64,000 nt of DNA from Acidobacteriota bacterium (GTDB lineage: Bacteria; Acidobacteriota; Terriglobia; Terriglobales; Acidobacteriaceae): positions 1 through 64,000 of the forward strand of contig QIAM01000019.1 in assembly GCA_003225555.1 (NCBI GenBank), in the 5' to 3' direction. The notes beneath the pieces were generated by a model that saw only the letters and a list, made by a program, of their open reading frames with translations, had not been told where the DNA came from and searched no databases. Each line of letters begins with the position of its first letter. The first letter of the stretch is position 1. Made by a program: the position numbers and the translations under genes. Positions 648 to 36,755 of this stretch are shown piece by piece.

Positions 648-2207
648 TTATCCCGCTTGTGCCGTGATCAGGCCCGAGTCCTGTTCTGGTAGTGGGATGA
701 TTTGCGCAGTGTGCGCCAAGGTTCGGTCCAGCGCATCCGCGAGGGTGGTCGGAAATGCAGAAGTCAGCAGGTTGACGTCAATTTGAAGATCCCGCGATGA
801 ATACAGCCGGTGCACAGCCAGGCTGCCTCGCTGGCAATTGCTAGAGCTCGCAAGGTCAAGGGTGAGCGTCCAGACCGACAATCCTTCGAGCGACTTGGGC
901 CGTCCGGGCTTGTGCCAGTGGAACGAGAGCTCGCTCTTGCGTCCCGGCCCCGAGTCCAGCGCCAGCGACTCGCCGGGTTGCAGCTTCACACTCAGGCCGA
1001 AAGCGTCAAAATCATTGCTGCCAAACGCTGCCACGAGAATGCGGCGAATCTGCTCGTAGTCGCGGGCAACCTTGAGTTCTTCCGTGGCCCGGCGGATGGC
1101 GAGGTTGTTGATGAAAATCTGGCGCTGATCGAGGGTTCGCTGCGCGACGCGTGCAAGCTCTCCAAATTCGAGATAACCCAGGTGCTGCACTCCGATCCAT
1201 ATGCCGACTCCCAGAACCGCAAGCACCAATCCCAAAGAACTGCCGGTAGGCCAAAGCAGGAATAGACTCAGCAACGCAAAAATGGCGGAGACGCCGTAGA
1301 GCAGGATGACCACCTGCCGATGGGTCATGCCGTGCTGCAAGAGTTTGTGATGGATATGCTCGCGGTCAGCCGTAAAGACTGGGCGCCCGGCAATAAAGCG
1401 CCGGATGACTGAGAGAGCCGTCTCAAGAATCGGTAATCCGAAAGAAACCACGGGGATAGCGACCGCCACAATCGTCGGTGCCTTTTGCGCCCCTTGGAGA
1501 GCCAGTGCGCTCAACAGGAAACCGATAAAGAGGCTTCCCGAGTCGCCCAAAAATATTGTTGCCGGGTTAAAGTTGAACTTCAAGAATCCAAGAATTGCAC
1601 CGGCAAGGGCAAGGGTCATCCCCGCGATCAGCGGCTGCCCGCTGAGCAGCGCCACCACAAAAGCGACCAGCGTTGAGAAAAGGGCAGACCCAGCGGCCAG
1701 GCCATCGAGGCCATCAATCAAGTTAAAAGCGTTGGTGATCGCCAGAACCCACAAGACCGTGATAGGAAGGCCTACGAACCAGGGCAATGTGTGTTGGCCG
1801 AACAGGACGGGAATATTGACGATGCGCAACCCGCCGATGAACAACATGGTTGCGGCCACACCCTGAATCCCGAACTTGAAGTATGGACCTGCTCCGTAAA
1901 TGTCGTCGTAGACCCCAAGCAGAAAAACAAGAGACGCGGGTACAACCACGATGAGCAGTGCCTTCAAAGACAAGCTGTGCAAGCGTGGGTTGTGCAGCGC
2001 CAGCAGGTAAGCCGTTCCCAAACTTAGCGAAAACGATACAAAGATCGCGACGCCGCCGAGGCGCGGAAGGGGATTTTTATGCAGATGCCGCTCTTGGGTC
2101 GGAACCGCGACCCAGCCACGTGCGGTTGCGAAGTCGCGAACCAACCTGGTCAGGATGAAAGACCCCAGCAGCGACAGGAAGAACATCCCGAGATACAATG
2201 CGCTCAA
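648..2207 (-). CDS. undecaprenyl-phosphate sugar-1-phosphate transferase, WecA/MraY family with C-terminal extension
   Basis: Multi-pass membrane enzyme (519 aa) of the polyprenyl-phosphate N-acetylhexosamine-1-phosphate transferase family, which links a sugar phosphate to undecaprenyl phosphate to start glycan synthesis. Family motifs are in order: DDIYG at residue 101, NLIDGLDG at 162, FLGDSGS at 219 and the HIHH motif at 284. About ten hydrophobic segments fill residues 1-340. The remaining ~170 residues form a soluble, probably cytoplasmic extension not found in WecA, with no domain I recognise. The gene diverges from the Wza-like export gene and faces the glycosyltransferase operon, so it is the likely initiating enzyme of the exopolysaccharide. 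The exact sugar cannot be read from the sequence. Confidence 0.88.
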   Translation of the reverse strand: MSALYLGMFFLSLLGSFILTRLVRDFATARGWVAVPTQERHLHKNPLPRLGGVAIFVSFSLSLGTAYLLALHNPRLHSLSLKALLIVVVPASLVFLLGVYDDIYGAGPYFKFGIQGVAATMLFIGGLRIVNIPVLFGQHTLPWFVGLPITVLWVLAITNAFNLIDGLDGLAAGSALFSTLVAFVVALLSGQPLIAGMTLALAGAILGFLKFNFNPATIFLGDSGSLFIGFLLSALALQGAQKAPTIVAVAIPVVSFGLPILETALSVIRRFIAGRPVFTADREHIHHKLLQHGMTHRQVVILLYGVSAIFALLSLFLLWPTGSSLGLVLAVLGVGIWIGVQHLGYLEFGELARVAQRTLDQRQIFINNLAIRRATEELKVARDYEQIRRILVAAFGSNDFDAFGLSVKLQPGESLALDSGPGRKSELSFHWHKPGRPKSLEGLSVWTLTLDLASSSNCQRGSLAVHRLYSSRDLQIDVNLLTSAFPTTLADALDRTLAHTAQIIPLPEQDSGLITAQAG

Positions 2208-2489: not shown

Positions 2490-3548
2490 ATGGAGTTGGA
2501 CACACCGAGCTTCAACCGCCGAGCGTACAATTCTGTTTTCGTCATTGCACTCTTTCTCTTCGCAGGCTTCGCCCAAGCTCAACAGAGTTCCGCAGAGCAG
2601 TCTCAGTCAGCAGCCCAGCCGGCATCTCAGGCGGCCGTAGGAACGACGGCTTCCAAGCCTGACTCTCAGAGGAACACTTCCGCGTCGGCGAAGAATGCAC
2701 CAGCGCCAGGAGGGATCAGTTCGTCCGATTCTCCCGTTCTGAAGCTGGGCGCCGGTGACCTGATCGAGGTGAGTGTCTACAATGTACCGGAACTGACGAC
2801 CAAAGCCCGCGTAGGGAATTCCGGAGACGTTTACCTCCCGCTGATCGACTACGTGCATGTCGAAGCCCTGACCACCGAAGAGGCTCAGGCTCTGATCCAG
2901 AAGCGGTTGGAGGATGGCGGTTTCGTCCGCAACCCGCATGTGACGATTTTCGTGGATGAATCGTCGTCCCAGGGGGTCACCTTGCTGGGAGAAGTTTCGA
3001 AGCCTGGTGTCTATCCGGATCTGGGAGATCACAAGCTTTACGAGTTGATTTCAATGGCGGGCGGTTTCACCCAGAGTGCGGCCCGCAAAGTGAGCATCGT
3101 TCGCCGCAATCAGCTGCAACCGATCCACCTTAGCCTTCCCCGGAATCTGGCTGACGATCTCAGCAGCAATGTGGATATTCTTCCTGGGGACACGATCATG
3201 GTGCCGCGGGCGCCGATAATTTACGTGGTTGGCGACGTAGGTCGTCCCAGCGGTTTGCTGGTTGATAACGGTTCACTAACCGTACTGCAAGCCATCGCCC
3301 TCGCAGGCGGAACGAACAAGACTGCGAAGATGGGTGGTGTGCGCATCATCCGCAAGGGCCCCACGGGAATGACCGAGACAGAAGTTCCTTTGAAAAAAAT
3401 GCTGGAAGCGAAGGCTCCCGATATACCGTTGCAGGGGGATGACATTCTATTCGTTCCAGTAAGCGGTGGACGAGTGCTGGCCCAGCGGACCTTCGAAGCG
3501 GCTATGTCAGCGGCAACCGCGGTTACGATTTATACTGTGCACCCCTAG
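2490..3548 (+). CDS. polysaccharide export protein, Wza-like (SLBB domains)
   Basis: Secreted protein (352 aa) with an N-terminal signal sequence ending near FAGFAQA and no lipobox cysteine, so unlike E. coli Wza it is probably not a lipoprotein. A Ser/Ala/Gln-rich linker (residues 32-80) precedes the Poly_export domain (about 83-165), then two SLBB beta-grasp domains (about 169-225 and 243-300), each with the AGG turn. Proteins of this type form the outer-membrane or periplasmic part of the capsule/exopolysaccharide export channel together with a Wzc-type kinase; a Wzc homologue is encoded at 33.1 kb. It is transcribed toward the glycosyltransferase operon and away from the WecA-like gene. 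Confidence 0.9.
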   Translation: MELDTPSFNRRAYNSVFVIALFLFAGFAQAQQSSAEQSQSAAQPASQAAVGTTASKPDSQRNTSASAKNAPAPGGISSSDSPVLKLGAGDLIEVSVYNVPELTTKARVGNSGDVYLPLIDYVHVEALTTEEAQALIQKRLEDGGFVRNPHVTIFVDESSSQGVTLLGEVSKPGVYPDLGDHKLYELISMAGGFTQSAARKVSIVRRNQLQPIHLSLPRNLADDLSSNVDILPGDTIMVPRAPIIYVVGDVGRPSGLLVDNGSLTVLQAIALAGGTNKTAKMGGVRIIRKGPTGMTETEVPLKKMLEAKAPDIPLQGDDILFVPVSGGRVLAQRTFEAAMSAATAVTIYTVHP

Positions 3549-3575: not shown

Positions 3576-4853
3576 TCAGACAGCGACCTGCGCTTTACCG
3601 ACCGGAACGATTCCACACAATTCCTGCAGCACTTGAATGTAGTCTTCAGCAGTCTGCTTGCGGGAGAAACGCCGGACGATGTACTCTCTGCCGTTCTTCC
3701 CCAACGTCGCTCCGAGCGAAAGATCGCCTGCCAGTCGCTTGATTGCGTGCGCGAGCGCGCTGGACTTCTCAGGCTCGATGACGATGCCGGCCCCAGCCTC
3801 CTCAACAATCTTCTGTGCCTGACCTTCGACACCGAGAATCACCGGACGCGCACAGGACATAAATTCCAGCATCTTTGTAGGAATTACAGTCTTGAAAACG
3901 TCAGTCTTCTTGAGGAGGACGAGGCCGGCGTCCGAGGCGGAGATGATCGCAGGAATTCTTTCGCGGGGCTGCTGATCGAGAAAGCGAACGTTGCTCAGGC
4001 CGCGGGATTGCGCGATGGCTTTGATCCGTTCCTTCTCCGCCCCTTCCCCGACCAGGAGGAAGAGGACATTGGGCTTTTCCTGGCGTAGCTGGTCTGCCGC
4101 GTCCAACAGCGTCTCCAGCCCATGGGCCATACCCATGGTTCCGACATAGCACACCAGAAACTTGCCTTCGGCCTCGAGTTGCTGTCGGAGTGAAAGGTTG
4201 GCGTCGACCGGCTGGGGAGCGAAAAGGTCGGTCTCGACTCCGTTTTCAACCACCGAGATTTTCTCGGGGAGAACCCGCCAATGCTCTACAAGATGATCTT
4301 TGAATGCAGAAGTCACAACGACGACGTGATCTGAGTGCTTGTACAGAACGCCCGCTATCGCCGAAAGCGTTTTGTTGAGTATCGAGTTTTCACTTCCGAC
4401 GCCCACCGCGATCAGGGACTCTGGCCAGAGATCGCGCACCTCGAATACGAATGGCACCTGCCTTGCGAACGCCAGCCAGCAGGCGGCGAGCCCCACCAAG
4501 AGTTGAGGGGATGAGCCGATGATGACATTGGGACGCGGAAGGCTCAGTCCCCGTACCGCAGCCGACAAACAGAACGAAGCGTAGTTCCGCATCCTCTCGT
4601 GCGCCTTGCGGTTGGGGAGGGGCCAGAGCCAGGTACGAAAAACGTCCACTCGCCCAACCTTTTCATGGTGCGTGAGGCGGTGTAGGCGGCTGCGCCACTC
4701 CGGCGGAACTACTCCGGTAGGATGATTGGGAAATCCCGTGAGCACCGATACGTCGTGACCGGCTTGAGTCCAGTGCTGCGCGAGCTCGGCCGCCCGAGCG
4801 GCGGGAGCGCCCATCTCCGGCGAAAAATATTGTGAGACGTAGAGAATCTTCAC
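3576..4853 (-). CDS. GT4 glycosyltransferase, WbuB-like
   Basis: A 425-aa GT-B fold glycosyltransferase. The N-terminus MKILYVSQYFSPEMGAPAAR is the hallmark of WbuB-type enzymes that transfer an amino sugar onto lipid-linked glycans. The C-terminal half has the GT4 donor-site pattern (VGTMGMAHGLETLLDA near residue 237; SDAGLVLLKK near 310; PTKMLEFMSCARPVI near 325). It is the last gene of the eight-gene minus-strand operon and starts 6 bp after the stop of the C5-epimerase gene, so the two are probably translationally coupled. Likely role: a cytoplasmic assembly step of the repeat unit of this locus; donor and acceptor are unknown. Confidence 0.88.
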   Translation of the reverse strand: MKILYVSQYFSPEMGAPAARAAELAQHWTQAGHDVSVLTGFPNHPTGVVPPEWRSRLHRLTHHEKVGRVDVFRTWLWPLPNRKAHERMRNYASFCLSAAVRGLSLPRPNVIIGSSPQLLVGLAACWLAFARQVPFVFEVRDLWPESLIAVGVGSENSILNKTLSAIAGVLYKHSDHVVVVTSAFKDHLVEHWRVLPEKISVVENGVETDLFAPQPVDANLSLRQQLEAEGKFLVCYVGTMGMAHGLETLLDAADQLRQEKPNVLFLLVGEGAEKERIKAIAQSRGLSNVRFLDQQPRERIPAIISASDAGLVLLKKTDVFKTVIPTKMLEFMSCARPVILGVEGQAQKIVEEAGAGIVIEPEKSSALAHAIKRLAGDLSLGATLGKNGREYIVRRFSRKQTAEDYIQVLQELCGIVPVGKAQVAV

Positions 4854-4859
4854 GCGAGC

Positions 4860-5840
4860 CTAGTAGTAACAAAGCTTGAATGCACTTTTGTAGCACAAAG
4901 CCCGCGTGCGCTTGCTGCGGCTTCGGGCGTACCTTTCCCAGCGATCGGCGACGGACGCAAATTTGTCTTCGCCGGTCAGACGATGCATCACCCGCAACTG
5001 CACAATGTGCAATCGATGGTAGAAGGGGCTTGCGGTCATCGGAAGGCGCGTCCCCGACTGCTCATATAAGGACCAGAAACCCAGATCATACCGCTCAAGA
5101 TTTCTCAGCAGCGTTTGCACAGCTCTGGCAAAAAGCTCGCGGGCCGCATGGTCTTGCGTGGCAAGGAAGTAATCGTAGACGCCCCACGCTGCCCAGATAA
5201 ATCCGTTCAGGATATGAGTCGGCGGAGAAACAATGTACTCCTCGAACCACAGATCTCCGTTCTCGTCGGTAAACGCGACACCACCCTCGTTCGCGGACTT
5301 GAAAAAAGCGGCCAAGGCAAGTCGTAGGGCTTCCAGATATCTCGAATCGCCAGTTTCCTTATAGGCACGAACCAGCGCCGAAATCCCCTGGCCCTGGGCA
5401 AGACCTGAGTACCAAGGCGCACGCAGCGTGTCGCGATATTCCCAATCAAAGTGATGGTTCCAAACCGCCAGGCCCTGGGCGTTTTTCTCCAAGTGGGAGC
5501 AGAGCCAGTCTGCAACGAGAAAGAATTTCTTGCGCCGGCTCGGGTCTCCGGTGCGGCGAAACAGGTTGTAATTTCCCAGTCCGTATTGCGCGATCGCAAT
5601 CGGGTTCTGCTGCAAACCAATCTTGCCGTGATAGTCGAGAAGCGGAATCCCGGCTGAGTCATACGCTCCGGGATAGTCTGCTTTCTCGGCGAAGACCATG
5701 TAGTACTCGCCCAGCTCTCCGGCGTGCGCGTTCCGATTCTCCTCGGGGGTTTCATGCCAGAACGTGAGGTGGCTCTTGCCACCGAGCAGATAAGCGCTGA
5801 GAATTCGGCGGTAATAGTTAAGGCGAGGCAAAAGCGGCAC
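4860..5840 (-). CDS. D-glucuronyl C5-epimerase family protein
   Basis: A 326-aa protein matching the C-terminal domain of heparosan glucuronyl C5-epimerase, the enzyme that inverts C5 of D-glucuronate to L-iduronate in heparin-like polymers. Visible motifs are WYSGLAQGQG (residues 143-152), PTHILNGFIWAAWGVYDY (207-224) and YHRLHIVQL (274-282), in the family's order and spacing. No signal peptide is evident, so action on a lipid-linked or nucleotide-linked substrate in the cytoplasm is possible, although the first residues could be mis-called. Position in the exopolysaccharide operon supports uronate modification. Whether the product is iduronate or another epimer is inference. Confidence 0.85.
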   Translation of the reverse strand: MPLLPRLNYYRRILSAYLLGGKSHLTFWHETPEENRNAHAGELGEYYMVFAEKADYPGAYDSAGIPLLDYHGKIGLQQNPIAIAQYGLGNYNLFRRTGDPSRRKKFFLVADWLCSHLEKNAQGLAVWNHHFDWEYRDTLRAPWYSGLAQGQGISALVRAYKETGDSRYLEALRLALAAFFKSANEGGVAFTDENGDLWFEEYIVSPPTHILNGFIWAAWGVYDYFLATQDHAARELFARAVQTLLRNLERYDLGFWSLYEQSGTRLPMTASPFYHRLHIVQLRVMHRLTGEDKFASVADRWERYARSRSKRTRALCYKSAFKLCYY

Positions 5841-5887
5841 GGATCCTGAGATTTCCTCGAACTATATCACGAGCGGAACGCCCGAAG

Positions 5888-6985
5888 TCAGCGCCCGACC
5901 GAGTAGAGCAATGTGGTCATGTCATCCCCCACAACCGCCGCCGTACTGACAGCGAGGTACTGCGTGCTGTTTTCTCCGTCGGGAAGAAATGCGTTGCCGT
6001 ATTGGAAGAGTCTCATGGGCCAGAGGTCTTTCTTCCAAGCCAGCAGCGGTTGCCAGTCGCGTTCCCCTCCACGGCCGTAAATACGAACGTGACGATCGGT
6101 ATTCAGTGCGCTGGGTTCGACCATGGTCGAGAAGAACACGTCGCGGCCAACGCGGCAGCCATAAATCGACGAAGTGCTGATCGGCGCCAGTTGTGACAAC
6201 TTTCCCTGTCGGTCCAGGCGGTAGATGTAGTTAGCTTCCCAGGGCGTGTCGGAAGAAAAATACAGCCCATCCTCCATGGGTATGAGCCCAACCGCGCGCG
6301 CCTGCTGGTTTCCGCGCACAACGACTTCAACTTGGCGAAACTCACACGACGCACGCAGGATGCGGCATTCGTCGCCGTAGTCACCAGTCAGCACCCACAA
6401 ACAGTCGCCCCAGCGATCGTAAACAATATTGTGAACATGACGGATCGTGTGCTTGGGAAAGACGTACGCGACATTCCAGGTCGCCCCGTCATCCGAAGAC
6501 ACATAGATATGGACTTCCTCGCGGGCAGGGTTGTCGAAGTATTCCCCCCAGAACACTGCGCCGCCGGGAACTGCCGTAATGTGCAGGGGCCGCGTGCCTC
6601 GAGTGATGGGATGTGTGCGCCGGAACTGGATTTCGCCAGCACGAAGCGTGACGATAGCTCCCGGAACCGCGGCTACCAACCCGCCTGACGCGAGCACAGA
6701 CAGTGCGTGAAACCCGTCACGAACCAGGCGCGAGCTGAGACGAATCGCGGAACTGAAATTTCGCCACCATGCGGGACTGTAGGAAGCGACCGATTCCCAA
6801 GACACATCTCCCGAGGAGATCTGACCTTGTGAAATTCTTGCGCGCAGTAGATGGTAGCCGCGAGCCGCGTAGAGCTGATCGCCTGCCCACGCCAGCGCTC
6901 GCAGACGCGGAAATCTCGCCACACAAACCGGGCTCAGCGACTGATTGGTGGATGACGCCGTCACGTGTGCAGCTCGCGAATTCAT
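5888..6985 (-). CDS. BNR/sialidase-like beta-propeller protein of the exopolysaccharide operon
   Basis: A 365-aa protein without signal peptide or membrane segment. Repeated blades show the Asp-box-like pattern (VSSDDGATWNVAYVF near residue 185) and short motifs such as GDCLWVLTGDYGDE and DGLYFSSDTP, as in sialidase/BNR-like propellers. I chose the ATG at 6985 because it lies 5 bp after the carbamoyltransferase stop codon; the longer frame starting at 7090 would overlap that gene by 100 bp and its extra residues look like an off-frame shadow. No catalytic residues can be assigned. It may bind or process the uronic-acid glycan made by its neighbours; the function is unknown. Confidence 0.7.
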   Translation of the reverse strand: MNSRAAHVTASSTNQSLSPVCVARFPRLRALAWAGDQLYAARGYHLLRARISQGQISSGDVSWESVASYSPAWWRNFSSAIRLSSRLVRDGFHALSVLASGGLVAAVPGAIVTLRAGEIQFRRTHPITRGTRPLHITAVPGGAVFWGEYFDNPAREEVHIYVSSDDGATWNVAYVFPKHTIRHVHNIVYDRWGDCLWVLTGDYGDECRILRASCEFRQVEVVVRGNQQARAVGLIPMEDGLYFSSDTPWEANYIYRLDRQGKLSQLAPISTSSIYGCRVGRDVFFSTMVEPSALNTDRHVRIYGRGGERDWQPLLAWKKDLWPMRLFQYGNAFLPDGENSTQYLAVSTAAVVGDDMTTLLYSVGR

Positions 6986-6990
6986 ACGGG

Positions 6991-8730
6991 CTAGGACTGG
7001 ACTTGAGGTTTGACGACCAGAAACAGCCCGATCGCCAGTACGTCCATACGAGTGCGCTGGAAACAGTCGATCGCTTCCTCCGGTGTACAAACGATTGGTT
7101 CATTCTCATTGAAGCTGGTATTGAGAAGGACAGGAATACCCGTCTTCCGATGAAAGGCAGCAATCAGATCGTAGTACATCGGATTTTCTTCGCGAGTCAC
7201 GGTCTGCAGGCGGCCAGTGTCGTCGACGTGATTCACCGCGCACAACTCTTTGCGTTTTTCCGGACGGATTTTGTAGACATGCAGCATGAAAGGCGATGGA
7301 TGATCGTGCTCGAAATATTCGTGCTGGTAGTCGGTAAGGATAGACGGCGCGAACGGACGGAACCACTCCCGATGTTTGATGCGAGCGTTTAGAACATCCT
7401 TCATATTCGGCAGACCGGGATGGGCGACGATGGAACGGTTGCCGAGCGCCCGCGGACCCCACTCCATACGGCCCTGAAACCATCCGATGACGTTGCCCGC
7501 CGCGATCTGGTCGGCCACCGCTGAAAGCAATGGCTCCCGCTCCAGTTTGCGATGCTCGACACCTGCACTCTTTAGCGCCGATTCAATCCGCGACTCGGAG
7601 AACTCCGGTCCGAGATAGGAGTTCTTCAGCTCATGGCGCCGTGGCTGCTTGAGCACAGAGTGATACGTGTGCAAGGCCGCGCCGATGGCCAAGCCTTCAT
7701 CACCTGCTGCCGGCTGGATATAAGTTCGCCGAAAGGGAGTGCAATCGAACAGCTTGCCGTTCGCGACGCTGTTGAGAGCGCATCCGCCCGCCATCGCCAG
7801 ATCGTCACAAGGAACCGTCTGGTGTAACCGGTCCAAAAGGTGGAAGAACACTTCCTCGAACCGGTGTTGCAATGCAAAAGCGAGATCCATGTCGCGCTGG
7901 GTAATCTCCGCGTGCGGACGGCGTGGCTCTCCGAAGAGTTTCTCAATACGCTCGGAAAAATGGCGAGCCAGCCGAACCGTGCCATCGGGCAGCACCTGCA
8001 TGCCTTGATTGCTGCCCAACGGCTTGAAGTAGGAGAGATCAAGCTGGAAACCGCCGTTTCTCGCGGCGACAATCTTCGTAATCTCACTGCAGTACGTATC
8101 TTTGCCATAAGGCGCCAGGCCCATGACCTTGCCTTCGTCCCCGTACTTCGTGTAGCCGATGAATTCACAGATCATCGTATAGAAACTGCCCAGCGAGTGG
8201 GGGAGAAAGACGCGATCCAGCACCTCGATGTCGTTCCCCTCACAGCGCGCCATCATGGTCGACACGAAGTCGCCGGAACCGTCATAACTAAAGCCAGCAG
8301 CCTTCTCCCAAGGCGAGCAGTAATACGCGCTGGCGATATGTGCGATGTGGTGTTCGAGATGATGTTCCAGAAAGCGAAGTTGCGAAGGCTCGACTTCGAG
8401 CGCCTTGCCTAGAAGCAAACGCACGTCGCGCATGGCCTGCTTGCGCTGGCGAAGGCGAATGAAGTTCAGGATCTTCGAGGGATTGGCGAGCGCGTATTGA
8501 ACTTTCTTCGCCAGGTTCGCGTCGCTATCTTGTCCGACAGCGACGTGATTCACGTCAGAAATCCTTGCGCCAGCTGCATCGAGGCAGGCTTTCACTGCCA
8601 GCGCCGGGAAACCGCCGAAGTGCTTGTGGCGGTTGAGACGCTCCTCGGCAATAGCGAACACGACTTCACCATCCTGCACGATGGCCGCCGAGGCATCGGC
8701 GTGAAACATGTTGAGGCCCAGAATGAGCAT
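6991..8730 (-). CDS. carbamoyltransferase, NodU/CmcH family
   Basis: A 579-aa enzyme of the O-carbamoyltransferase family, which moves the carbamoyl group of carbamoyl phosphate via carbamoyl-AMP onto a hydroxyl. The N-terminal part begins MLILGLNMFHADASAAIV, like other family members, and holds the metal-binding histidine cluster HHLEHHIAH (123-131). The C-terminal NodU domain is recognised by MEWGPRALGNRSI and FNENEPIVCTPEEAI. NodU carbamoylates Nod factor sugars. In this operon the natural acceptor is a sugar of the exopolysaccharide, but that is inference. It lies 44 bp after the bi-domain oxidoreductase gene. Confidence 0.92.
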   Translation of the reverse strand: MLILGLNMFHADASAAIVQDGEVVFAIAEERLNRHKHFGGFPALAVKACLDAAGARISDVNHVAVGQDSDANLAKKVQYALANPSKILNFIRLRQRKQAMRDVRLLLGKALEVEPSQLRFLEHHLEHHIAHIASAYYCSPWEKAAGFSYDGSGDFVSTMMARCEGNDIEVLDRVFLPHSLGSFYTMICEFIGYTKYGDEGKVMGLAPYGKDTYCSEITKIVAARNGGFQLDLSYFKPLGSNQGMQVLPDGTVRLARHFSERIEKLFGEPRRPHAEITQRDMDLAFALQHRFEEVFFHLLDRLHQTVPCDDLAMAGGCALNSVANGKLFDCTPFRRTYIQPAAGDEGLAIGAALHTYHSVLKQPRRHELKNSYLGPEFSESRIESALKSAGVEHRKLEREPLLSAVADQIAAGNVIGWFQGRMEWGPRALGNRSIVAHPGLPNMKDVLNARIKHREWFRPFAPSILTDYQHEYFEHDHPSPFMLHVYKIRPEKRKELCAVNHVDDTGRLQTVTREENPMYYDLIAAFHRKTGIPVLLNTSFNENEPIVCTPEEAIDCFQRTRMDVLAIGLFLVVKPQVQS

Positions 8731-8774
8731 GAACTAGTTTTCTTTCTCCCGAGGTCGTTGCTATGGAACTATCA

Positions 8775-11012
8775 TTAATCCTTGCTGGAGTCGTCCATAG
8801 CGGCATCAATGAAAGAAGCGGTGTCGACGGCGAGGCGTTTGCCGGTTGCCACGGACTCCTGCGTTCGCAAGGTAGCGAGGGTGGTACAAACAAGCTCATC
8901 AACCGGGATGGCGGGAGGTCCTTGTTGCCGGACGGACCGTGTGAAGGCGGCCCACTCGCCGCGATGCCCCTTGTCCTGATGCCAGCGCGAGCGGATCACT
9001 TGCTTGCGGCCATTGCGCAGGAGTTCAAGACGACGAAAATCTTCAAGCACCGCGACGGCTCCTCCGCCGAATGCTTCCACGCGTTCCTTCGAGAATGAAC
9101 GGTCGCCGTTCGCGAGATAGCTGATCGTCCCTTCTGAACCGTTTGCGAATCGTAGAGAAGCGAGAATGTTGTCGCCACTGTAGCGACCTGAATTTCCCAC
9201 GGCATGCGCCTCGACTTCGACGATGGGAGAACCAGTCAGAAACATCAGCAGATCCACAAAATGGCAGACCTCTCCCAGAATCCGCCCGCCGCCCTGCTGG
9301 GGATCGTTGACCCAATGATCGGGAGGAAGAAATCCGGCATTAACGCGATAGTGCAGTGCCAGCGGCTCGGAAATCGGTGCCAGAAACGATTTCATCCGCG
9401 CGCTCATAGGCGCAAACCGGCGATTGAAACCAACCATCAGCTCAGGCCTATGCGTGGAGGCAATGCCGAAGTAAGTGCGAACTATAAAACGAAGTTCCTG
9501 TTCCGACAAGCAGAGTGGCTTCTCGCAAAACACGTGCTTCCCTGCTTCCAGCGCGGCCAGAACACGGCTCGCGTGGAGGTGATGGCGAGTCGCAATCACC
9601 AACGTATTGATCCCGGCATCGCGAACCAGTTGGGCATCATCGGTAGTGCAGTAGCGAAAGCCAAATTTCTGCGCCGCGTGGTGCGCGTGCGCGCCGGTCG
9701 CCGTGCAGACGCCGGTGAGGGTGGTATCGCGCGAAGCTTTCAATACGGGAACGAGCGTCCCCAATGCGAACACTCCTGCTCCGAGCAGCCCCACTGAAAT
9801 GCTGTCCACCGACGGCTGTCGTGCGGGAGTGCTGCCTGAGGACGCAGATAGAAGTTCCGGAGTCCGAGCATCGTCGCCTGTGCCCCCGTATTGAATGACG
9901 ACGCCCAGGAATGGCTCCCCGGATCGTCCCGTAATCAGTTCATACGCAGCCGGAGCATGTTCAATCGGAAAGCGATGCGTGATGAGAGATACGACGTTCA
10001 CTTTCCTTTCAGAGAGCAGATGCAGAAAGGCTTCCATGTTCCGCGTTTCCGTCCAGCGCACATAGCCGACGGGATAGTCGCGGCCTTTCTGCTCATAAGC
10101 GGCGTCATATCGGCCAGGGCCATAGGAACGGGAAATCCTGAAGTCGAGTTCCTTCTCGTAGTACGCCTTGCGTTCGATATCGATGCCGACCGTTCCCACG
10201 GCAACAATAATCGCGCGGTCGCGCGCGACAGCGCCCGCCAGATTGACCGGCTCGCTGCTGGGAGTTTCAGCAGCAATGAGAACTGAATCGACGCCTGCGC
10301 CGTGCGAGTGCTCTGCACAAAGATCGGGAAAGTCCGAAGCAGAAGTTGTGGCCGCATCAGCGCCCAGACTGAGGGCAAGCTCGGCGCGTGAGGAGCTAAG
10401 GTCCATTCCAAGCACTCGACAGCCTGCGGCTTTCAAGAGTTGCGCGGTGAGTTGGCCGACCAAGCCAAGTCCGATCACCGCCACTAGATCGCCCAGTTTC
10501 GCTTCCGCCGTGCGGACACCATGAAGAGCAACCGCACCGAGAGTTGCAAATGCCGCTTCGTCGAAGGAAACCTCGCCGGCGGCCGCGGAGATGCGAGCTG
10601 CCAACAGGCGGGGAATACAGGCGAGTTCGCCGTGTACGGCAAATCCAGCGCCCGCGCAGGCCACACGATCAGCGGGTTGAATGTCCGTGATGCCCTCACC
10701 CACGGCGATGACCGTTCCCGCACTGCTGTATCCGGGCGCCTGTGGCTGATCGAGACGGCTGCGTACCGTGTGCACGGCGGAGAAAATGCCATCACGCCGC
10801 ACTTTATTAATGACATCGCGCACAAGGTCGGGCCGGGCCTGCGCTTTCTGCAACAAGCTCTTGCGCGAGAACTCGAGTGCCGCACGTTCTGTCCCAGCGG
10901 AAACCACGGACGCCGCAATACGTACCAGCAAACAGCCCGGCAGCAACTGCGGTGCCGGAACTTCAGCAACGGTAATCTCGCCGGAGCGCGCGTCCTGGAA
11001 AACCTGTTTCAT
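8775..11012 (-). CDS. bi-domain oxidoreductase (zinc-type alcohol dehydrogenase + Gfo/Idh/MocA)
   Basis: A 745-aa fusion. Residues 1 to about 355 are a medium-chain dehydrogenase/reductase (Rossmann motif VIGLGLVGQLTAQLL near 195). Residues about 400-745 are a Gfo/Idh/MocA oxidoreductase (VGLLGAGVFALGTLVPVL near 405; the family motif GKHVFCEKPLCL near 490). Such fusions are repeatedly found in exopolysaccharide and O-antigen clusters, where they are thought to oxidise or reduce a nucleotide sugar, but the substrate is unknown. It overlaps the upstream asnB by 4 bp (ATGA type), a sign of tight coupling. The central linker is rich in Ser, Pro and Ala. Confidence 0.9.
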   Translation of the reverse strand: MKQVFQDARSGEITVAEVPAPQLLPGCLLVRIAASVVSAGTERAALEFSRKSLLQKAQARPDLVRDVINKVRRDGIFSAVHTVRSRLDQPQAPGYSSAGTVIAVGEGITDIQPADRVACAGAGFAVHGELACIPRLLAARISAAAGEVSFDEAAFATLGAVALHGVRTAEAKLGDLVAVIGLGLVGQLTAQLLKAAGCRVLGMDLSSSRAELALSLGADAATTSASDFPDLCAEHSHGAGVDSVLIAAETPSSEPVNLAGAVARDRAIIVAVGTVGIDIERKAYYEKELDFRISRSYGPGRYDAAYEQKGRDYPVGYVRWTETRNMEAFLHLLSERKVNVVSLITHRFPIEHAPAAYELITGRSGEPFLGVVIQYGGTGDDARTPELLSASSGSTPARQPSVDSISVGLLGAGVFALGTLVPVLKASRDTTLTGVCTATGAHAHHAAQKFGFRYCTTDDAQLVRDAGINTLVIATRHHLHASRVLAALEAGKHVFCEKPLCLSEQELRFIVRTYFGIASTHRPELMVGFNRRFAPMSARMKSFLAPISEPLALHYRVNAGFLPPDHWVNDPQQGGGRILGEVCHFVDLLMFLTGSPIVEVEAHAVGNSGRYSGDNILASLRFANGSEGTISYLANGDRSFSKERVEAFGGGAVAVLEDFRRLELLRNGRKQVIRSRWHQDKGHRGEWAAFTRSVRQQGPPAIPVDELVCTTLATLRTQESVATGKRLAVDTASFIDAAMDDSSKD

Positions 11013-13006
11013 CGAGCTGTTGCTTGTGCCGCAGCCACCTGCGGCAGCTGAGACTCGAATCTCTCGGCCTTACCATCGAGAAATACCTGCATCCAGAGTT
11101 CGAGGGTGACGAGTTGCCACAGTTGCATCGACCAATCCTGGCGGCCACTGCGATGCTCGTCGATCAAACACTGTACCGCCTCCGGACGGAACATACCGCG
11201 GTTACGGACCTGAGGTGCCGAGAGCAAATCATCCACCATTTCCTTGAGGTCGTGTGCCAGCCAATAGTCTACTGGAGCGGCGAAGCCGGCTTTTGGCTGG
11301 TGCAGCACTTCGCGGGGCAGAATGTCTGCCATCGCTTGTCGGAAGATGTACTTCGTTGTGGGTCGAAGAGAGCCCTTTAACTTCAGATAAGGTGGGACAT
11401 TCCACGCGACGAACTCGGCAAACTGGCGGTCAAGAAAAGGCACTCGGACCTCGACCGAAGACGCCATGCTCATCTTGTCGTTATAGGTCAGGTTCAGGCT
11501 GGCCATGAAAATCTTGGTGTCAAGGTAGAGCATCTGGTGCAGAAAGTCTGCGTCGCCGACGCGGTCGAATGCCGCGCGATGCTGGATCGCAGGATCGGAT
11601 CCCGAAGCCGTTGTTGCAAACTCGGAAGTGTAGAGATCGTGTTTTTGCCTGTGGTCGAGATAAGTACAGTTCGCAATGAAACGATCGATGGGATCGAGCG
11701 ACGCGCTGCGAGCCATTTTCTTGCCGAGGCGCATCCTCCCCTTCAACGGAGTACCACGCAGACTGGGAAGGGCGGCCATGGCTCCTTCCGCCAGACCCCG
11801 GATACCCAATGGCAAGTGGCTGTACGCCTGTGCCCAATAGTGAGCCACGTACTTGCGGTATCCGGCGAAGAGTTCATCTCCGCCCACGCCGGAAAGAAGC
11901 ACGGTTGCCTGCTTGCGGGCTTCGCGACAAACAAGATACGCCGTGATGATGGCGGGATCGGCTGTGGGCTCATCCATGTGCCACACGAGGCGGGGCAAGA
12001 GATCGGTGACGTCGGGCGCGACGACGATACGCTGGTTCTCGCAGCCCAGTTGACGCGCCAGGCGTGTGGCGACCTCGGGATCGTCCAGCGTGGTCTCGCC
12101 GACTCGGTACTTCCGCGGAAAAGTGATGGTGTATGTGCGAACCGGCTGACGAGTCGCCCTCGCCATCATCGCGACGATACTCGAAGAGTCGAGTCCAGCG
12201 CTCAAGAACGCTCCGATGGGAACATCGCTGACCATCTGGGCCTCAACAGAACGGCGGAAGCGGTCGCGAACCTCTTCCATCAACTCACCATGCGACCTGG
12301 GGTAAGCATGGCTTGCCGAAGGTAAGGTCAGGTCCCAGTACTGCGTGAGCTGTAGTTGTCCGTCGCGGAGGGTCGCGTAGTGTCCCGCGGGAAGCTTCAG
12401 AATGTGCCGGAACATTGTCTTGGGATCAGGCACCCAGAGGAACGTCAGGTACTGATGAAGAGATTCCGGATCGAGTTCGGCTTTGACTTCTGCCACCTGC
12501 AGAAGCGCCTTGATTTCTGAGGCAAAGGCGAACCGCTTGCCTTGGTGATAATAGTAAAAAGGTTTGATCCCGAAATGATCGCGGGCCATGAACAAGGTCG
12601 GAGAACCGTAGCGGAGATCGCAGATGGCAAAAGCGAACATTCCATTCAAGCGCTTAACGCAATCTGGGCCCTCCTCTTGGTAGAGGCGGAGAATCACTTC
12701 GGTATCAGTGTGCGAAGAGAACCTGTGGCCTTTGCTCTCGAGTTCGCGACGGAGTTCTGCGAAGTTGTAGACCTCTCCGTTGTAGGTGATCCAGACCGTG
12801 CGGTCCTCGTTGCACATCGGCATGTGGCCAAGAGGAGACAAATCGAGAATGGCAAGACGGCGGCTGCCCAGTCCAATGTAGGAACCGTCGGGAAAGGTCC
12901 GCTCCCACGAACCGGAGTCGTCGGGTCCGCGGTGGGCCTGGACGTGAGTCATCCGGGCCAACGTTTCCCCATCTCCGCAATTCACCAGACCGTTGATGCC
13001 ACACAT
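11009..13006 (-). CDS. AsnB-type glutamine-hydrolysing amidotransferase 1
   Basis: A 665-aa asparagine-synthetase-like protein. The N-terminal glutaminase domain has the catalytic Cys2 (MCGINGLV), HRGPDD and YNGEVYNF motifs. The C-terminal synthetase domain has the ATP pyrophosphatase loop as LSAGLDSS, with Ala where the usual motif has Gly (SGGxDS). In exopolysaccharide loci such proteins are thought to amidate a sugar carboxylate rather than make asparagine. A second, better-conserved AsnB is encoded two genes upstream, arguing for two different amidation steps or acceptors. Both flanking genes are EPS genes. True asparagine synthesis cannot be excluded from sequence alone. Confidence 0.88.
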   Translation of the reverse strand: MCGINGLVNCGDGETLARMTHVQAHRGPDDSGSWERTFPDGSYIGLGSRRLAILDLSPLGHMPMCNEDRTVWITYNGEVYNFAELRRELESKGHRFSSHTDTEVILRLYQEEGPDCVKRLNGMFAFAICDLRYGSPTLFMARDHFGIKPFYYYHQGKRFAFASEIKALLQVAEVKAELDPESLHQYLTFLWVPDPKTMFRHILKLPAGHYATLRDGQLQLTQYWDLTLPSASHAYPRSHGELMEEVRDRFRRSVEAQMVSDVPIGAFLSAGLDSSSIVAMMARATRQPVRTYTITFPRKYRVGETTLDDPEVATRLARQLGCENQRIVVAPDVTDLLPRLVWHMDEPTADPAIITAYLVCREARKQATVLLSGVGGDELFAGYRKYVAHYWAQAYSHLPLGIRGLAEGAMAALPSLRGTPLKGRMRLGKKMARSASLDPIDRFIANCTYLDHRQKHDLYTSEFATTASGSDPAIQHRAAFDRVGDADFLHQMLYLDTKIFMASLNLTYNDKMSMASSVEVRVPFLDRQFAEFVAWNVPPYLKLKGSLRPTTKYIFRQAMADILPREVLHQPKAGFAAPVDYWLAHDLKEMVDDLLSAPQVRNRGMFRPEAVQCLIDEHRSGRQDWSMQLWQLVTLELWMQVFLDGKAERFESQLPQVAAAQATAR

Positions 13007-13015
13007 TTTCCTAAG

Positions 13016-13927
13016 TTAGCCCCGGTTGCGCTGCAACTTCTGCTTTTTCAACTCGTAGATCTTCGCTTTAGTGTGGAACATCTGCACTGCCTGGAATCCA
13101 CAATAGATCATGCCTGGCACGCCGTCGAGAAACCCAAACCGGAAAAGATAGCGGTAAAGAAACAGCAGGACGGGCGAACCCGGCAGCGCGTAGAGCTTCT
13201 TTTTGAGCCAACGACGCTGCTGGGCTTGCGTGCCAAAAGCGGCTGGAGGCAACTCACTGCCGCCGCCTCTACGCAGAAGAACACGGGCTTCCCAGTTCGA
13301 GTATTCATCGTGCTTCTGAATGTACCGTGAAAGCGATTCCACGTTGCGATGGATGATTGGATTTCTCAGCTTCCCCGTGGCGCCTTCCACCACAACGTGT
13401 TCGTGAACTTCCATGTCGGCCATGGAGGCGTCCTGCTCCGGGAGACGGCATTCGTAGTGTCCCTTACCTCGACGGAACAAAGAGAGTTTCTGGAAGCTGG
13501 CACCGCTGTGGCGGAGTACTCGCCCGAGAAAATACATTCGCAGGGTTATGTAGTAACCATGGATCGCCGGATTTTCAACGGCCGGGCGGATCTCTTCCGT
13601 CAACTCGGGTGTGAGAGATTCGTCGGCGTCGAGCAATAGAATCCAGTCGAAGGCCAGCGGCAGAGTGTCCATCGCCCACTGGCGCTTCTTGGGCCAACCG
13701 CCCGCGTAGTGAAATTGGACTACCCTGGCGCCGAAGGACCGCGCGATGTCAGGCGTCGCATCGGAGCTGCCGGAGTCGACAACGTACACTTCGCCAACCT
13801 CACGCAAACTTTCGAGACACTGCGGCAGATTCCGCGCCTCGTTGCGTGTGGCCACGATCACACTGATCGGCACTTTGGCGGTCGAGACCATTCCGTCGGC
13901 CTTTTCGATTTCATCGACCTTCTGCAT
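13016..13927 (-). CDS. GT2 glycosyltransferase, WaaE/KdtX-like
   Basis: A GT-A fold family 2 glycosyltransferase (303 aa from this start). It shows ISVIVATRNEARNLPQCLES at the N-terminus, VVDSGSSDAT (first donor-site Asp), and LLLDADESLTPEL with the DxD metal motif. The C-terminal part is basic, with a short hydrophobic stretch (SPVLLFLYRYLFRFGF), as in LPS-core KdtX-like enzymes that sit at the membrane. I set the start at 13927, 27 bp after the upstream asnB stop. An earlier start at 13999 would overlap asnB by 46 bp, and a later ATG at 13891 has a better purine-rich site, so the first 12 residues are uncertain. Confidence 0.85.
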   Translation of the reverse strand: MQKVDEIEKADGMVSTAKVPISVIVATRNEARNLPQCLESLREVGEVYVVDSGSSDATPDIARSFGARVVQFHYAGGWPKKRQWAMDTLPLAFDWILLLDADESLTPELTEEIRPAVENPAIHGYYITLRMYFLGRVLRHSGASFQKLSLFRRGKGHYECRLPEQDASMADMEVHEHVVVEGATGKLRNPIIHRNVESLSRYIQKHDEYSNWEARVLLRRGGGSELPPAAFGTQAQQRRWLKKKLYALPGSPVLLFLYRYLFRFGFLDGVPGMIYCGFQAVQMFHTKAKIYELKKQKLQRNRG

Positions 13928-13953
13928 AACCGGTTGCCAAACTGACGATTGGC

Positions 13954-15864
13954 TCACAAATGCAATTCGCACCAGCGCTCGAGCACGTATAGAGACCACG
14001 GCCGGGTCCAGGAAGTTGCGCCTCGCAGGAAATCATGCCACACCCGTTGCACCTGGCCTCGGTCCAGCACTTCGGCGAGTGGACCTTCGCTGAACTTGCC
14101 CTCCAGCACGGGTTCGACCTCACGCCGCAGTTCTCCTCGCAGCCAATGCTCGAACGGAAGCGTGAACCCGCGTTTGCGGCGGCGAACAACCTGATCCGGC
14201 AGAGAGCTCTCCAGGGCCGCAACCAGCAACTTCTTCGGAGTGTGTCCGTTAAGCTTTTCCGCCCCGGGGAGTGCCAGGACTGCCTTGGCAAGCTGATGGT
14301 CGATCAGAGGTACTCGCACTTCCAGGCCCTGGGACATGCTCATGAAATCGGCGTCGCGCAACAGGGTATTGAGCATATAACAGCGCATCTCCAAATAGGA
14401 AACCCGATTGACGGTATCGAGTGAGAGCGCGGCCTGCAAGTTTTCGCGCTGCGATGCCACAGCGCGCTCGCGGCCAACTGTATCGGCAGGTGGGCACAGC
14501 AGGTCGACCTGGCGCGGGGTGAACAGCATACGCGTGAGGAAATACGGATGAAGCAGGCGGCCATTGTCGCGGATGAGCGAGGTCAACTTTCGGTTTTGAT
14601 CCGACGCCGGGGCAAGCGTGTCGAAGGCCGACCCCAGAGAATGGCGAGCGCCGCCCGGAAGATGCTTCCACGCGTTCGCGAACCTCTCCATGCGTGGGAT
14701 CGTGCGGAAGCTGGAATAGCCGGCGAAAACTTCGTCTCCCCCCAGGCCCGAAAGAGCCACTTTCACTCCCGCCGCGCGCGCTTCCCGCGAGACGAAGTAA
14801 GTGTTGACAGCGTCCATGCTGGGAAGGTCCATGGCGCGAAGTGCACCGGGAACGTCTCCGAGAACGTCGTTCTGTGAAACGGTGATCTCGTGATGATCGG
14901 TACCGAATTGTTGCGCGATGGCACGGGAGTATTCCGCTTCGGAAAATTTGGCTTCGCGAAAAACAATCGAGAACGTGCTTGGAGTTACACCTCCCCGGCT
15001 CAGAATGCTGACCAGTGCGCTGGAGTCGATGCCTCCGGAAAGAAATACACCGAGGGGCACGTCGCTGACCAATTGGGAGCGGACCGCCTCTTCCAACATC
15101 GGCTGAATGCCCGTGCCCGCGGTTTTTCGATCCGGGGAAAAAGTCACAGCCTGGCCAGCATTCGGCTGATCATCAATCAAGTCCCAATAGCGCGACACTC
15201 GCAGTGTACCGTTGACCCACGTCAAGCTGTGGGCTGCCGGAAGCGCATGCACGCCTTCGATCAGCGTGAGCGGATCGTATGCCGAGCCGAATGTCAGGTA
15301 GTTGAGCAGTCCAGCTGGATCAAGGCGGCGAGGGACGAGGCCCGTTCCGAGGATGGTGCGAAGTTCAGAAGCAAGAATGAGGTAAGGGCCACGATGGGCA
15401 TAGTAAAGTGGCTTGACGCCCATGGGGTCACGCGCCACAAACAACTGGTGCTTCACAGCGTCCCAAATGGCGAAGGCGAACATCCCACGCAGCTTCGTAA
15501 GGCAGCCTTCACCCCACTTCGCATAAGCCTTCAAAAGAACTTCGGTGTCCGAGTGGCTGACGAGCTTCGTCCCTGCTCGTTCCAGTTCGTCACGAATGTC
15601 ACGGAAGTTGTAGATCTCGCCGTTGTAGACAATCCAGTTCCCGGTCTCCGCGTCGTGCATGGGCTGGTGTGCGAGGGGAGACAAATCAAGAATGGCCAGA
15701 CGGCGGTTCCCCAGGCCAATCTCAACCGCGTCGGGCGCGGCATCGTGGAGAATGATCGTCCCGCAATCGTCCGGGCCGCGGTGCGCGAGGGACTGCGTCG
15801 CCCGCTCCAGGAGTTCTGCGGGAAACTGCGCTTTATGCGCAACGATTCCAAAAATTCCACACAT
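13954..15864 (-). CDS. AsnB-type glutamine-hydrolysing amidotransferase 2
   Basis: A 636-aa asparagine-synthetase family protein, first gene of the eight-gene minus-strand EPS operon. It has Cys2 (MCGIFGIV), AHRGPDD and VYNGEIYNF in the glutaminase domain, and the canonical LSGGIDSS loop plus LSGLGGDEVFAGY in the synthetase domain. It is clearly different in sequence from the AsnB at 11.0-13.0 kb, so this is not a recent duplication. The likely role is transfer of glutamine-derived ammonia to a carboxylate, here perhaps a uronic acid; housekeeping asparagine synthesis is the alternative. Confidence 0.88.
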   Translation of the reverse strand: MCGIFGIVAHKAQFPAELLERATQSLAHRGPDDCGTIILHDAAPDAVEIGLGNRRLAILDLSPLAHQPMHDAETGNWIVYNGEIYNFRDIRDELERAGTKLVSHSDTEVLLKAYAKWGEGCLTKLRGMFAFAIWDAVKHQLFVARDPMGVKPLYYAHRGPYLILASELRTILGTGLVPRRLDPAGLLNYLTFGSAYDPLTLIEGVHALPAAHSLTWVNGTLRVSRYWDLIDDQPNAGQAVTFSPDRKTAGTGIQPMLEEAVRSQLVSDVPLGVFLSGGIDSSALVSILSRGGVTPSTFSIVFREAKFSEAEYSRAIAQQFGTDHHEITVSQNDVLGDVPGALRAMDLPSMDAVNTYFVSREARAAGVKVALSGLGGDEVFAGYSSFRTIPRMERFANAWKHLPGGARHSLGSAFDTLAPASDQNRKLTSLIRDNGRLLHPYFLTRMLFTPRQVDLLCPPADTVGRERAVASQRENLQAALSLDTVNRVSYLEMRCYMLNTLLRDADFMSMSQGLEVRVPLIDHQLAKAVLALPGAEKLNGHTPKKLLVAALESSLPDQVVRRRKRGFTLPFEHWLRGELRREVEPVLEGKFSEGPLAEVLDRGQVQRVWHDFLRGATSWTRPWSLYVLERWCELHL

Positions 15865-17320: not shown

Positions 17321-18329
17321 ATGATCCACGTTGGAGTAGATCTTCACCAGAGATTTTGTTGCATGACGGCGCTGGAAGCAAGAGGGAAGATTTTACAGGC
17401 GGGGCCGGTGACGAACGAGAAGCTGGCTTTGCGGCGGTATTTTCGGCAGTTTCGGGGGCAGGAAGTGGAGGTGGCGGTGGAGGCGTGCGGCTTCTGGCCG
17501 GCGTTTCGCGAGGTGGTAGAGCCGGAGGTGAAGCGGTTGGTGCTGGTGCATCCGCAGCGGGTGAAGGCGATTGCCTCGGCCAAACTGAAGAACGAACCGG
17601 GTGGATTCGGCGACGCTGGCGCATTTGCTGCGCTGCGATTTGTTGCCGGAGTCGTGGAAGGCGGACCGGGAGACGCAGGCGCGGGGGCAGCAAGTGCGGT
17701 TGCGGGCGACGCTGGTGCGGCAGCGGACGCGGCTGAAGAACCAGGTGCACGCGGTGCTGCATCAGAAGGGGCTGCATTCGCCGGTGACGGATTTATTCGG
17801 CAAAGGGGGACGGCGGTGGCTGGCCGGGTTGCAGCTGCCGGCGGCGGCGCGGGAAGCGGTGAACGTGTGCTTGCGGCTGCTGGATGGCTACAGCGAAGAA
17901 GTGCAAAAACAAAATCTGCAATTAAGGGAAAGAGCAAAACAAGACAAGTGGGCCGAGTGGCTGATGACGATACCGGGGATCGGGGAGTGTTCGGCGATGA
18001 TGCTGCTGGCCGAGATCGGCGACATCGGACGATTTCGCGACCCAGAAGCGTTGTGCAGTTATGCCGGACTGGTGCCGCGGGTGCGGGAATCGGCGGGCAA
18101 GGCGGCGCGTGGCGGGATCACGCGGCAGGGATCGCCCTGGATGATGGTGGAAGCGGCGCAGGTGGCGACGCGCAGTTCGCCGGGGGCTCGGCGTTCCTAC
18201 GAACGGTTGCGGCGCAAAAAGCACAAGCACGTGGCGCGAGTGGCGCTGGCGCGCAAGTTGCGGATCGCGGTCTACGCCCTGTTGCACGACGGCGTAGTGT
18301 TTGAAGAAGCAAAGTTTGCGGCGGTGTAA
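17321..18329 (+). pseudogene. IS110/IS1111 transposase with a single-base frameshift
   Basis: The first part (MIHVGVDLHQRFCCMTALEA) is the RuvC-like DEDD domain with Asp7, the Glu in VEACGF and the region up to AKLKNE. The reading frame then shifts. The downstream frame continues VDSATLAHLL (a DEDD-domain Asp) through the coiled middle part to the C-terminal transposase_20 domain (MTIPGIGECSAMMLLAEIGDIG). The span is 1009 bp; removing one base near 17596-17601 (in GAACCGGGTGGAT) gives a continuous 335-aa protein, the family's usual length. Programmed frameshifting is not typical of this family, so I read it as a mutation or sequencing error. A strong AAGGAGG site precedes the ATG. Confidence 0.85.
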
Positions 18330-36712: not shown

Positions 36713-36755
36713 AAATAGCATCGGGCCCCCACCCGTCAGGGAAACAATCATTTTC

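Follow-up and report, generated by a model that had tools for sequence, protein, structure and literature searches.

Eight genes on the minus strand of a soil acidobacterium, occupying positions 3576-15864 of the window (the whole 64,000-nucleotide stretch analysed), make up an operon with the order AsnB1, GT2, AsnB2, oxidoreductase (OXR), carbamoyltransferase (CARB), propeller (PROP), epimerase (EPI) and GT4. Their successive intergenic distances, read from AsnB1 to GT4, are -46, 9, -4, 44, 5, 47 and 6 bp (range -46 to +47 bp), the GT2 gene overlapping the end of AsnB1. The first-pass annotation had described eight tightly packed genes on one strand, beside WecA- and Wza-like genes, and each of these was recovered at its position. 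Pfam matches above cut-off underlie every assignment within the operon except that of PROP. For the latter gene the most likely start is the ATG at 6985 (gene 5888-6985); a longer frame, to 7090, would overlap CARB. The features considered here are as follows.

648..2207, minus strand: WecA-like polyprenyl-phosphate sugar-1-phosphate transferase with a C-terminal extension (PF00953, 132 bits; membrane segments)
2490..3548, plus strand: Wza-like outer-membrane polysaccharide export protein (PF02563, PF10531, PF22461; N-terminal hydrophobic segment, signal peptide)
3576..4853, minus strand: GT4 glycosyltransferase, WcaI-like (PF00534/PF13439)
4860..5840, minus strand: EPI, GlcE-type uronosyl C5-epimerase (PF06662, homology to human GLCE, AF2 model)
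5888..6985, minus strand: PROP, seven-bladed beta-propeller protein (AF2 model and fold matches)
6991..8730, minus strand: CARB, NodU/TobZ-type O-carbamoyltransferase (PF02543, PF16861)
8775..11012, minus strand: OXR, medium-chain dehydrogenase plus Gfo/Idh/MocA (PF00107, PF01408, PF22725)
11009..13006, minus strand: AsnB2, AsnB-type amidotransferase with PP-loop SAGLDS (PF00733, PF13537)
13016..13999, minus strand: GT2 glycosyltransferase (PF00535)
13954..15864, minus strand: AsnB1, AsnB-type amidotransferase with PP-loop SGGIDS (PF00733, PF13537)
33098..35443, plus strand: Wzc-like chain-length regulator/kinase, context outside the operon (Wzz, GNVR and AAA_31 domains)
36669..38105, plus strand: Wzy/O-antigen-ligase-like protein, context, possible polymerase (PF04932, 81 bits)

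The WecA- and Wza-like genes adjoin the operon, and most related loci in Terriglobales have them in the same arrangement. With neither a flippase nor a polymerase among its genes, the operon is not a complete polymer locus. It also contains no UDP-sugar dehydrogenase, genes of this kind lying elsewhere in the genome. Within the window, the Wzc- and Wzy-like genes are 17-22 kb away, the latter being one of five such genes in the genome, and Wzx is found only on other contigs. In relatives with fuller loci, Wzx and Wzy are accompanied by nonulosonate and sulfatase-like genes. What forms the upstream half of the locus in those relatives is missing here, and a search of the genome, which is 86% complete, with one glycosyltransferase of that half gave no match. 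The relatives found are Acidobacteriota MAGs, many of them named Ca. Sulfotelmatobacter or Terriglobia, in keeping with the phylum guessed beforehand, and the close ones are all MAGs. The exopolysaccharide context proposed earlier is supported by WecA, Wza and the glycosyltransferases in this genome and, in the fuller relatives, by additional sugar genes along with Wzx and Wzy. An open-access literature search of incomplete coverage found no paper on this gene combination.

Predicted activities of the operon enzymes

EPI scored 167 bits against PF06662 (cut-off 23.3) and matched human GLCE with an E value of 3e-25 in a sequence search. Its residues E201, Y202, N212, Y259 and Y274 align to E499, Y500, N510, Y560 and Y578 of human GLCE, so that all five positions of the catalytic list given in PMC13308652 are kept. 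Among EPI relatives, the Glu, Y259 and Y274 occur in nearly all, Y202 in 45/55, and the catalytic Asn is invariant in alignment A2. The AF2 model matched human GLCE (6i02) with a Z score of 33.8 and an rmsd of 2.6 over 274 residues, the next unrelated fold reaching a Z of 17.0. Conserved residues and predicted fold together support the uronate C5-epimerase chemistry that had been assigned to this protein. EPI shares with animal GLCE, which serves in heparan sulfate synthesis, and with Bermanella marisrubri RED65_08024 the PF06662 fold and the five catalytic residues, and would likewise be expected to invert a uronosyl C5, but it is short (326 aa, the catalytic toroid only), lacks both a signal peptide and the extra N-terminal beta domain, and sits inside a lipid-linked assembly operon. 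Very few prokaryotic GLCE-type C5-epimerases have been characterised, and the bacterial enzyme among them has no known native glycan (PMC4432689, PMC13308652). The cross-phylum epimerase tree had too little resolution to demonstrate lateral transfer.

No signal peptide was recognisable in EPI, PROP, CARB or AsnB by a hydropathy scan, and the operon enzymes therefore probably act on lipid-linked precursors and not on the finished polymer; the modification at polymer level implied by the first-pass annotation is accordingly no more than tentative. Archaeal Agl32, whose fold differs from that of EPI, is an earlier example of an enzyme that epimerises a lipid-linked glycan (PMC13308652).

Against the WbpS-type model TIGR03108 (eps_aminotran_1; cut-off 816.9), AsnB2 scored 537 and AsnB1 427 bits, below the cut-off in both cases, and both exceeded that of TIGR01536; hence they are classified as AsnB family only. 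The PP-loop motif of AsnB2 is present in its orthologues, and in four genomes a DUF362/AMP-ligase pair takes the place of this protein. The two AsnBs resemble WbpS, WbqG and PGN_1234, for which uronamide formation has been shown genetically (PMC7468200), in architecture and in their surface-glycan locus, and differ from them in lying far below the family cut-off, in being present as two copies and in the replaceability of AsnB2. With these scores and this replacement, the uronamides of the first-pass annotation are reduced to one candidate outcome. The AsnBs could amidate something else.

Both domains of CARB exceeded their Pfam cut-offs (N-terminal PF02543, 171 bits; C-terminal PF16861, 239 bits), and the protein matched PDB 7xb6 and TobZ with E values of 1e-91 and 8e-79. 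Like the NodU-, TobZ- and GdmN-type O-carbamoyltransferases, it matches over its full length; unlike them, it is linked to a propeller protein, its acceptor is presumably a glycan and it falls far under the NodU equivalog cut-off (NF041651, 169 bits versus 1000). We infer that carbamoylation and amidation hit the same glycan.

PROP had no Pfam, NCBIfam or PHROG match, and a profile search of PDB sequences returned nothing significant. Its AF2 model (mean pLDDT 89) is a confident propeller, with virginiamycin B lyase as the best structural match (Z 25.5); as this was tied with WD40 propellers, assigning a function from the fold was abandoned. The protein has one Asp-box and many invariant Arg, His, Glu and Asp residues, and it is possible that PROP is an enzyme or a ligand-binding partner of CARB. 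The two genes form a Terriglobales accessory pair that is nearly always found together, their genome sets being near-identical (15/16, a remnant included).

The operon is a module with swapped parts

The operon set is kept as a block in many Terriglobales, and since orthologous blocks recur in so many genomes its arrangement goes beyond chance. Together with co-occurrence in the order, scored over 200 genomes (EPI-PROP, p=4e-18; PROP-CARB, p=1e-19; EPI-OXR, p=1e-14; these p values ignore the relatedness of the genomes), the blocks bear out the expected co-conservation of the set across Acidobacteriota. An obligate trio of epimerase, amidotransferase and carbamoyltransferase does not follow: the epimerase occurs without the carbamoyltransferase, and AsnB and the oxidoreductase occur without the epimerase. 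Three genomes (G070, G092 and G135) still have the OXR-CARB part, on another contig than PROP-EPI. Across phyla, only an oxidoreductase-(UDP-GlcNAc 2-epimerase)-epimerase-GT4 core is kept; of 18 loci that fall outside the main Terriglobales set, 12 have OXR and 17 have GT4 no more than 1.6 kb from EPI.

Six to seven sister genomes carry at the syntenic locus a heparinase II/III-type protein, a formyltransferase and an alpha-toroid protein. The AsnB-GT2-OXR-GT4 frame persists, EPI, CARB and PROP being replaceable by this cassette, and the two versions never occur together in any sampled genome. Heparinase II/III is also a family of uronate-polymer enzymes, and where PL12 has its catalytic residues the replacement protein carries Asn, Tyr and His. 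In the sister locus L188 the gene for this protein spans 7268-9448. The cassettes exchange three genes for three, and a one-to-one equivalence of EPI and the heparinase-type protein is therefore only putative; distant homology of the toroid protein to EPI was weak (hhalign probability 67%). The replacement protein belongs, as a putative lyase or epimerase, to the same family as DS-epi1 and the heparinase II/III fold enzymes, which is another family than that of EPI. It is conceivable, if rather doubtful, that bacteria draw on two unrelated families of uronate C5-epimerases in their surface-glycan loci, the GlcE-type and a heparinase II/III-type (DS-epi1-like), and that these are exchangeable cytoplasmic modules whose targets are lipid-linked precursors; some of the 'heparinases' encoded in biosynthetic loci would then form a class of epimerases and not of lyases. 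Such a swap could explain why cytoplasmic 'heparinases' occur in biosynthetic loci and, if true, the bacterial pair would have a parallel in animals, which likewise possess two epimerase families unrelated to each other.

Proposed pathway and epimerase substrate

We favour, as a reasonably probable account, that the operon serves the cytoplasmic assembly and tailoring of a uronic-acid-containing repeat unit of a Wzx/Wzy-type exopolysaccharide. The WecA-like, GT2 and GT4 enzymes would build an undecaprenyl-PP-linked oligosaccharide, in which EPI would invert the C5 of a uronate, GlcA to L-iduronate or ManNAcA to L-GulNAcA. One or both AsnBs may amidate a carboxylate of the glycan or of a sugar precursor in the manner of WbpS, and CARB may O-carbamoylate a hydroxyl, with PROP aiding it or acting afterwards, a joint action suggested by their near-perfect co-occurrence. 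OXR would make or modify some sugar of the repeat unit, which would then be flipped, polymerised and exported via Wza.

That the product is instead a non-polymeric glycolipid, a glycoprotein glycan or a carbamoylated small molecule seems unlikely. The solved relatives of CARB do act on small molecules, in archaea a uronate epimerase has an N-glycan precursor as its substrate (PMC13308652), and flippase and polymerase are absent from the operon, but the synteny of the WecA- and Wza-like genes and the presence of Wzx and Wzy in the fuller loci speak for a polymer. It is very improbable that the genes are chance neighbours drawn from an accessory pool with no common pathway: this would fit a modular locus of which several parts are found apart, yet the genes overlap, PROP and CARB share nearly all their genomes, EPI is strongly associated with OXR, and gene order extends across phyla.

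Within the exopolysaccharide account, EPI may turn the D-GlcA of a heparosan-like unit, or of another unit that contains GlcA, into L-IdoA. The nearest characterised enzymes are GlcA C5-epimerases whose catalytic residues are conserved in EPI, GlcA in desulfated heparan sulfate is a substrate of a bacterial GlcE-type enzyme (PMC4432689), and the genome has a TuaD-like UDP-glucose dehydrogenase. The recurring sugar-nucleotide gene beside EPI, however, is not a UDP-glucose dehydrogenase but a UDP-GlcNAc 2-epimerase (WecB; TIGR00236 over cut-off), which is no more than 1.6 kb from EPI in 13/18 loci outside the main Terriglobales set, in Chloroflexota, Myxococcota, Omnitrophota, Gemmatimonadota and others. 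The iduronate named in the first-pass annotation is thus more specific than the neighbourhood allows, and because of this neighbour EPI may also convert D-ManNAcA to L-GulNAcA, with AsnB amidating that carboxylate; we regard the two reactions as about equally likely. WecB occurs in all 19 EPI genomes versus 60/181 others, an association inflated by kinship among the 19, and at L046 and L047, two loci with distant EPI paralogues, WecB is present together with a UDP-sugar dehydrogenase that shares 70% identity with the WecC-leaning copy of the genome. Against ManNAcA as the substrate, the WecB of the window genome is on another contig with no adjoining dehydrogenase, WecB could merely supply ManNAc, and we know of no GlcE-family enzyme that has been demonstrated to act on ManNAcA. 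A WecC-like dehydrogenase was discarded as evidence for ManNAcA because it is near-ubiquitous in the order (183/200 genomes).

The Vibrio exopolysaccharide (VPS) contains L-GulNAcA amidated with glycine, for which C5 inversion of ManNAcA has been proposed (PMC3901696) and whose epimerase is not known (PMC4432689). It resembles the proposed product in combining a C5-inverted amino uronate with carboxyl amidation, a likeness at the level of the glycan; unlike for the proposed product, no carbamate is reported in its structure (PMC3901696). The operon offers a widely distributed genetic context for prokaryotic GLCE-type epimerases in which the choice between IdoA and L-GulNAcA can be tested, and compact bacterial enzymes of the EPI kind would be useful for making iduronate or guluronate glycans.

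The operon and its C5-epimerase

The window genome, an Acidobacteriota MAG (4.42 Mb, completeness 86%), has Terriglobia and Ca. Sulfotelmatobacter MAGs as its closest relatives. The eight-gene operon proposed in the first-pass annotation was confirmed, all genes at 3576-15864 lying on the minus strand with gaps of -46, 9, -4, 44, 5, 47 and 6 bp, which fit the expectation for a single operon. Pfam and NCBIfam back the GT4, C5-epimerase, carbamoyltransferase, two-domain oxidoreductase (OXR), both AsnBs and GT2. The eighth product matched no sequence family in the databases searched (Pfam and NCBIfam among them), and its all-beta model (pLDDT 89) has seven-bladed propellers as structural matches.

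5888-6985, minus strand: propeller gene (preferred gene extent)

AsnB2 (11009-13006, minus strand) and its orthologues carry the PP-loop SAGLDS, rarely SSGLDS, versus the usual SGGxDS.

The 326-aa epimerase matched PF06662 with 167 bits and human GLCE with an E-value of 3e-25. Its E201, Y202, N212, Y259 and Y274 are counterparts of the GLCE catalytic residues E499, Y500, N510, Y560 and Y578 (PMC13308652); across 55 related sequences, E201, Y259 and Y274 hardly vary, and 45 conserve Y202. Comparison of its AF2 model with human GLCE gave a Z-score of 33.8 over 274 residues (next fold, 17.0). Because sequence match, active-site residues and fold all agree, the protein is placed in the GLCE family as a predicted epimerase, one without an extra N-terminal domain and, by hydropathy, without a signal peptide. 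Distant paralogues (33-36% identity) in two other loci (L046, 10280-11242; L047, 9565-10623) adjoin the UDP-GlcNAc 2-epimerase gene wecB, and these loci also hold a UDP-sugar dehydrogenase, AsnB and Wza; as EEV replaces the EEY of GLCE in the L046 paralogue, its active site may differ.

Conservation and modularity of the locus

The order was surveyed in 200 genomes: 19 have a close orthologue of the epimerase (identity at least 61%), 16 one of the propeller protein and 14 one of the carbamoyltransferase (at least 66%), with one carbamoyltransferase remnant in addition. The propeller and carbamoyltransferase genome sets are identical bar one genome, the epimerase co-occurs with the propeller in 15, and the gene associations are strong (p 1e-14 to 1e-21, uncorrected for genome kinship). 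Three genomes of one genus (G070, G092, G135) retain both parts of a split locus, with AsnB1-GT2-OXR-carbamoyltransferase on a separate contig from propeller-epimerase. Propeller or carbamoyltransferase is decaying in two genomes: both are remnants in L045 (G004), and in L193 (G109) an intact propeller gene adjoins a broken carbamoyltransferase, the epimerase being missing.

The comparison also took in 18 loci from beyond the main Terriglobales set, including ones from Chloroflexota, Myxococcota/Deltaproteobacteria, Gemmatimonadota, Omnitrophota, Bacteroidota and a Jorgensenbacteria MAG. The propeller gene was missing from all 18 and the carbamoyltransferase was present in one, whereas OXR (12/18), GT4 (17/18) and WecB (13/18; TIGR00236, above cut-off) lay within 1.6 kb of the epimerase. 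The pan-phylum core is therefore OXR-(WecB)-epimerase-GT4, often with AsnB and GT2, and carbamoyltransferase plus propeller is a lineage-specific addition. The operon is real, conserved and modular, and its general reading as a locus for a tailored uronic-acid exopolysaccharide stands; the detailed chemistry proposed for the polymer is tentative.

Two exchanges were seen in relatives.

L028, 11183-14133, minus strand: DUF362 and AMP-ligase-like pair at the AsnB2 position (also L034, L185, L186)
L188, 5184-9448: alpha-toroid, formyltransferase and heparinase II/III cassette at the place of the epimerase cassette (syntenic in L189, L190, L191, L194, L200)

The former, in place of AsnB2 in G087, G072, G070 and G092, suggests an alternative carboxylate chemistry. 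The latter occurs as (AsnB1-)GT2-AsnB2-toroid-formyltransferase-heparinase-OXR-GT4-Wza-WecA in G014, G195, G124, G183 and G134, as OXR-toroid-formyltransferase-heparinase-GT4-Wza in G171 and as a fragment in G174. The syntenic heparinase (7 genomes) and the epimerase orthologue (19 genomes) never overlap; within the genus, 7 genomes have the epimerase, 6 the heparinase, 2 neither and none both (one-sided p=0.0056). The heparinase-like protein is a relative of PL12 heparinase III without a signal peptide (hydropathy), and it retains Asn, Tyr and His at what we take to be the catalytic positions of the PL12 family. Animals have a second uronate C5-epimerase, DS-epi1; the human enzyme has the same fold as PL12-type heparinase, and the authors of its study suggested that minor active-site changes convert a lyase into an epimerase (PMC8006597); for these reasons the heparinase-like protein is a candidate epimerase. 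The exchange and this fold kinship support a uronate in the glycan. With three genes exchanged for three, the swap does not prove that the heparinase-like protein is an epimerase; that epimerases of two unrelated families stand in for each other functionally seems rather unlikely.

Substrate and proposed pathway

The first-pass annotation had predicted iduronate-type residues, for which GlcA would be needed as substrate. The window genome encodes a TuaD-like dehydrogenase, as well as a WecC-leaning one, each below its specific cut-off, and the GlcA route is quite possible while falling short of probable. The recurrent neighbour of the epimerase, however, is WecB, which points to ManNAc or ManNAcA in the glycan: WecB is found in 19/19 epimerase-bearing genomes versus 60/181 others, although that of the window genome sits on a contig other than the operon's. 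Inversion of ManNAcA at C5 would give L-GulNAcA, known as a glycine amide from a Vibrio exopolysaccharide (PMC3901696), the responsible epimerase there being unidentified (PMC4432689). ManNAcA as substrate is a somewhat doubtful but serious possibility, nearly equal to GlcA.

Gene content, conservation, active-site residues and missing signal peptides (hydropathy) form the directly observed part of the mechanism. The glycan would be assembled on undecaprenyl-PP and probably inverted at C5 by the epimerase ahead of flipping, with a precedent in Agl32, which works on a lipid-linked glycan (PMC13308652). Amidation by AsnB, after the precedent of WbpS/WbqG (PMC7468200), O-carbamoylation and export through Wza would complete the pathway; AsnB1 and AsnB2 both fall under the cut-off of the WbpS/WbqG-type model.

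Genomic surroundings

In relatives the locus can be fuller, with Wzx, a Wzy-like protein, genes for nonulosonate synthesis, a protein of sulfatase fold and more glycosyltransferases. Three features of the window lie outside the operon.

16078-17106: ArgE-like gene upstream of the operon (family by eye)
17321-18304, plus strand: degraded transposase-like frame, IS110-like (family by eye), adjoining the ArgE-like gene
33098-38105, plus strand: second polysaccharide export group, with Wzc-like, TPR/carbohydrate-binding and Wzy-like genes

The ArgE-like/transposase-like site is the point at which relatives carry further exopolysaccharide genes, and the upstream half of the locus has likely been rearranged or lost in the window genome. 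Its Wzx genes lie on other contigs.
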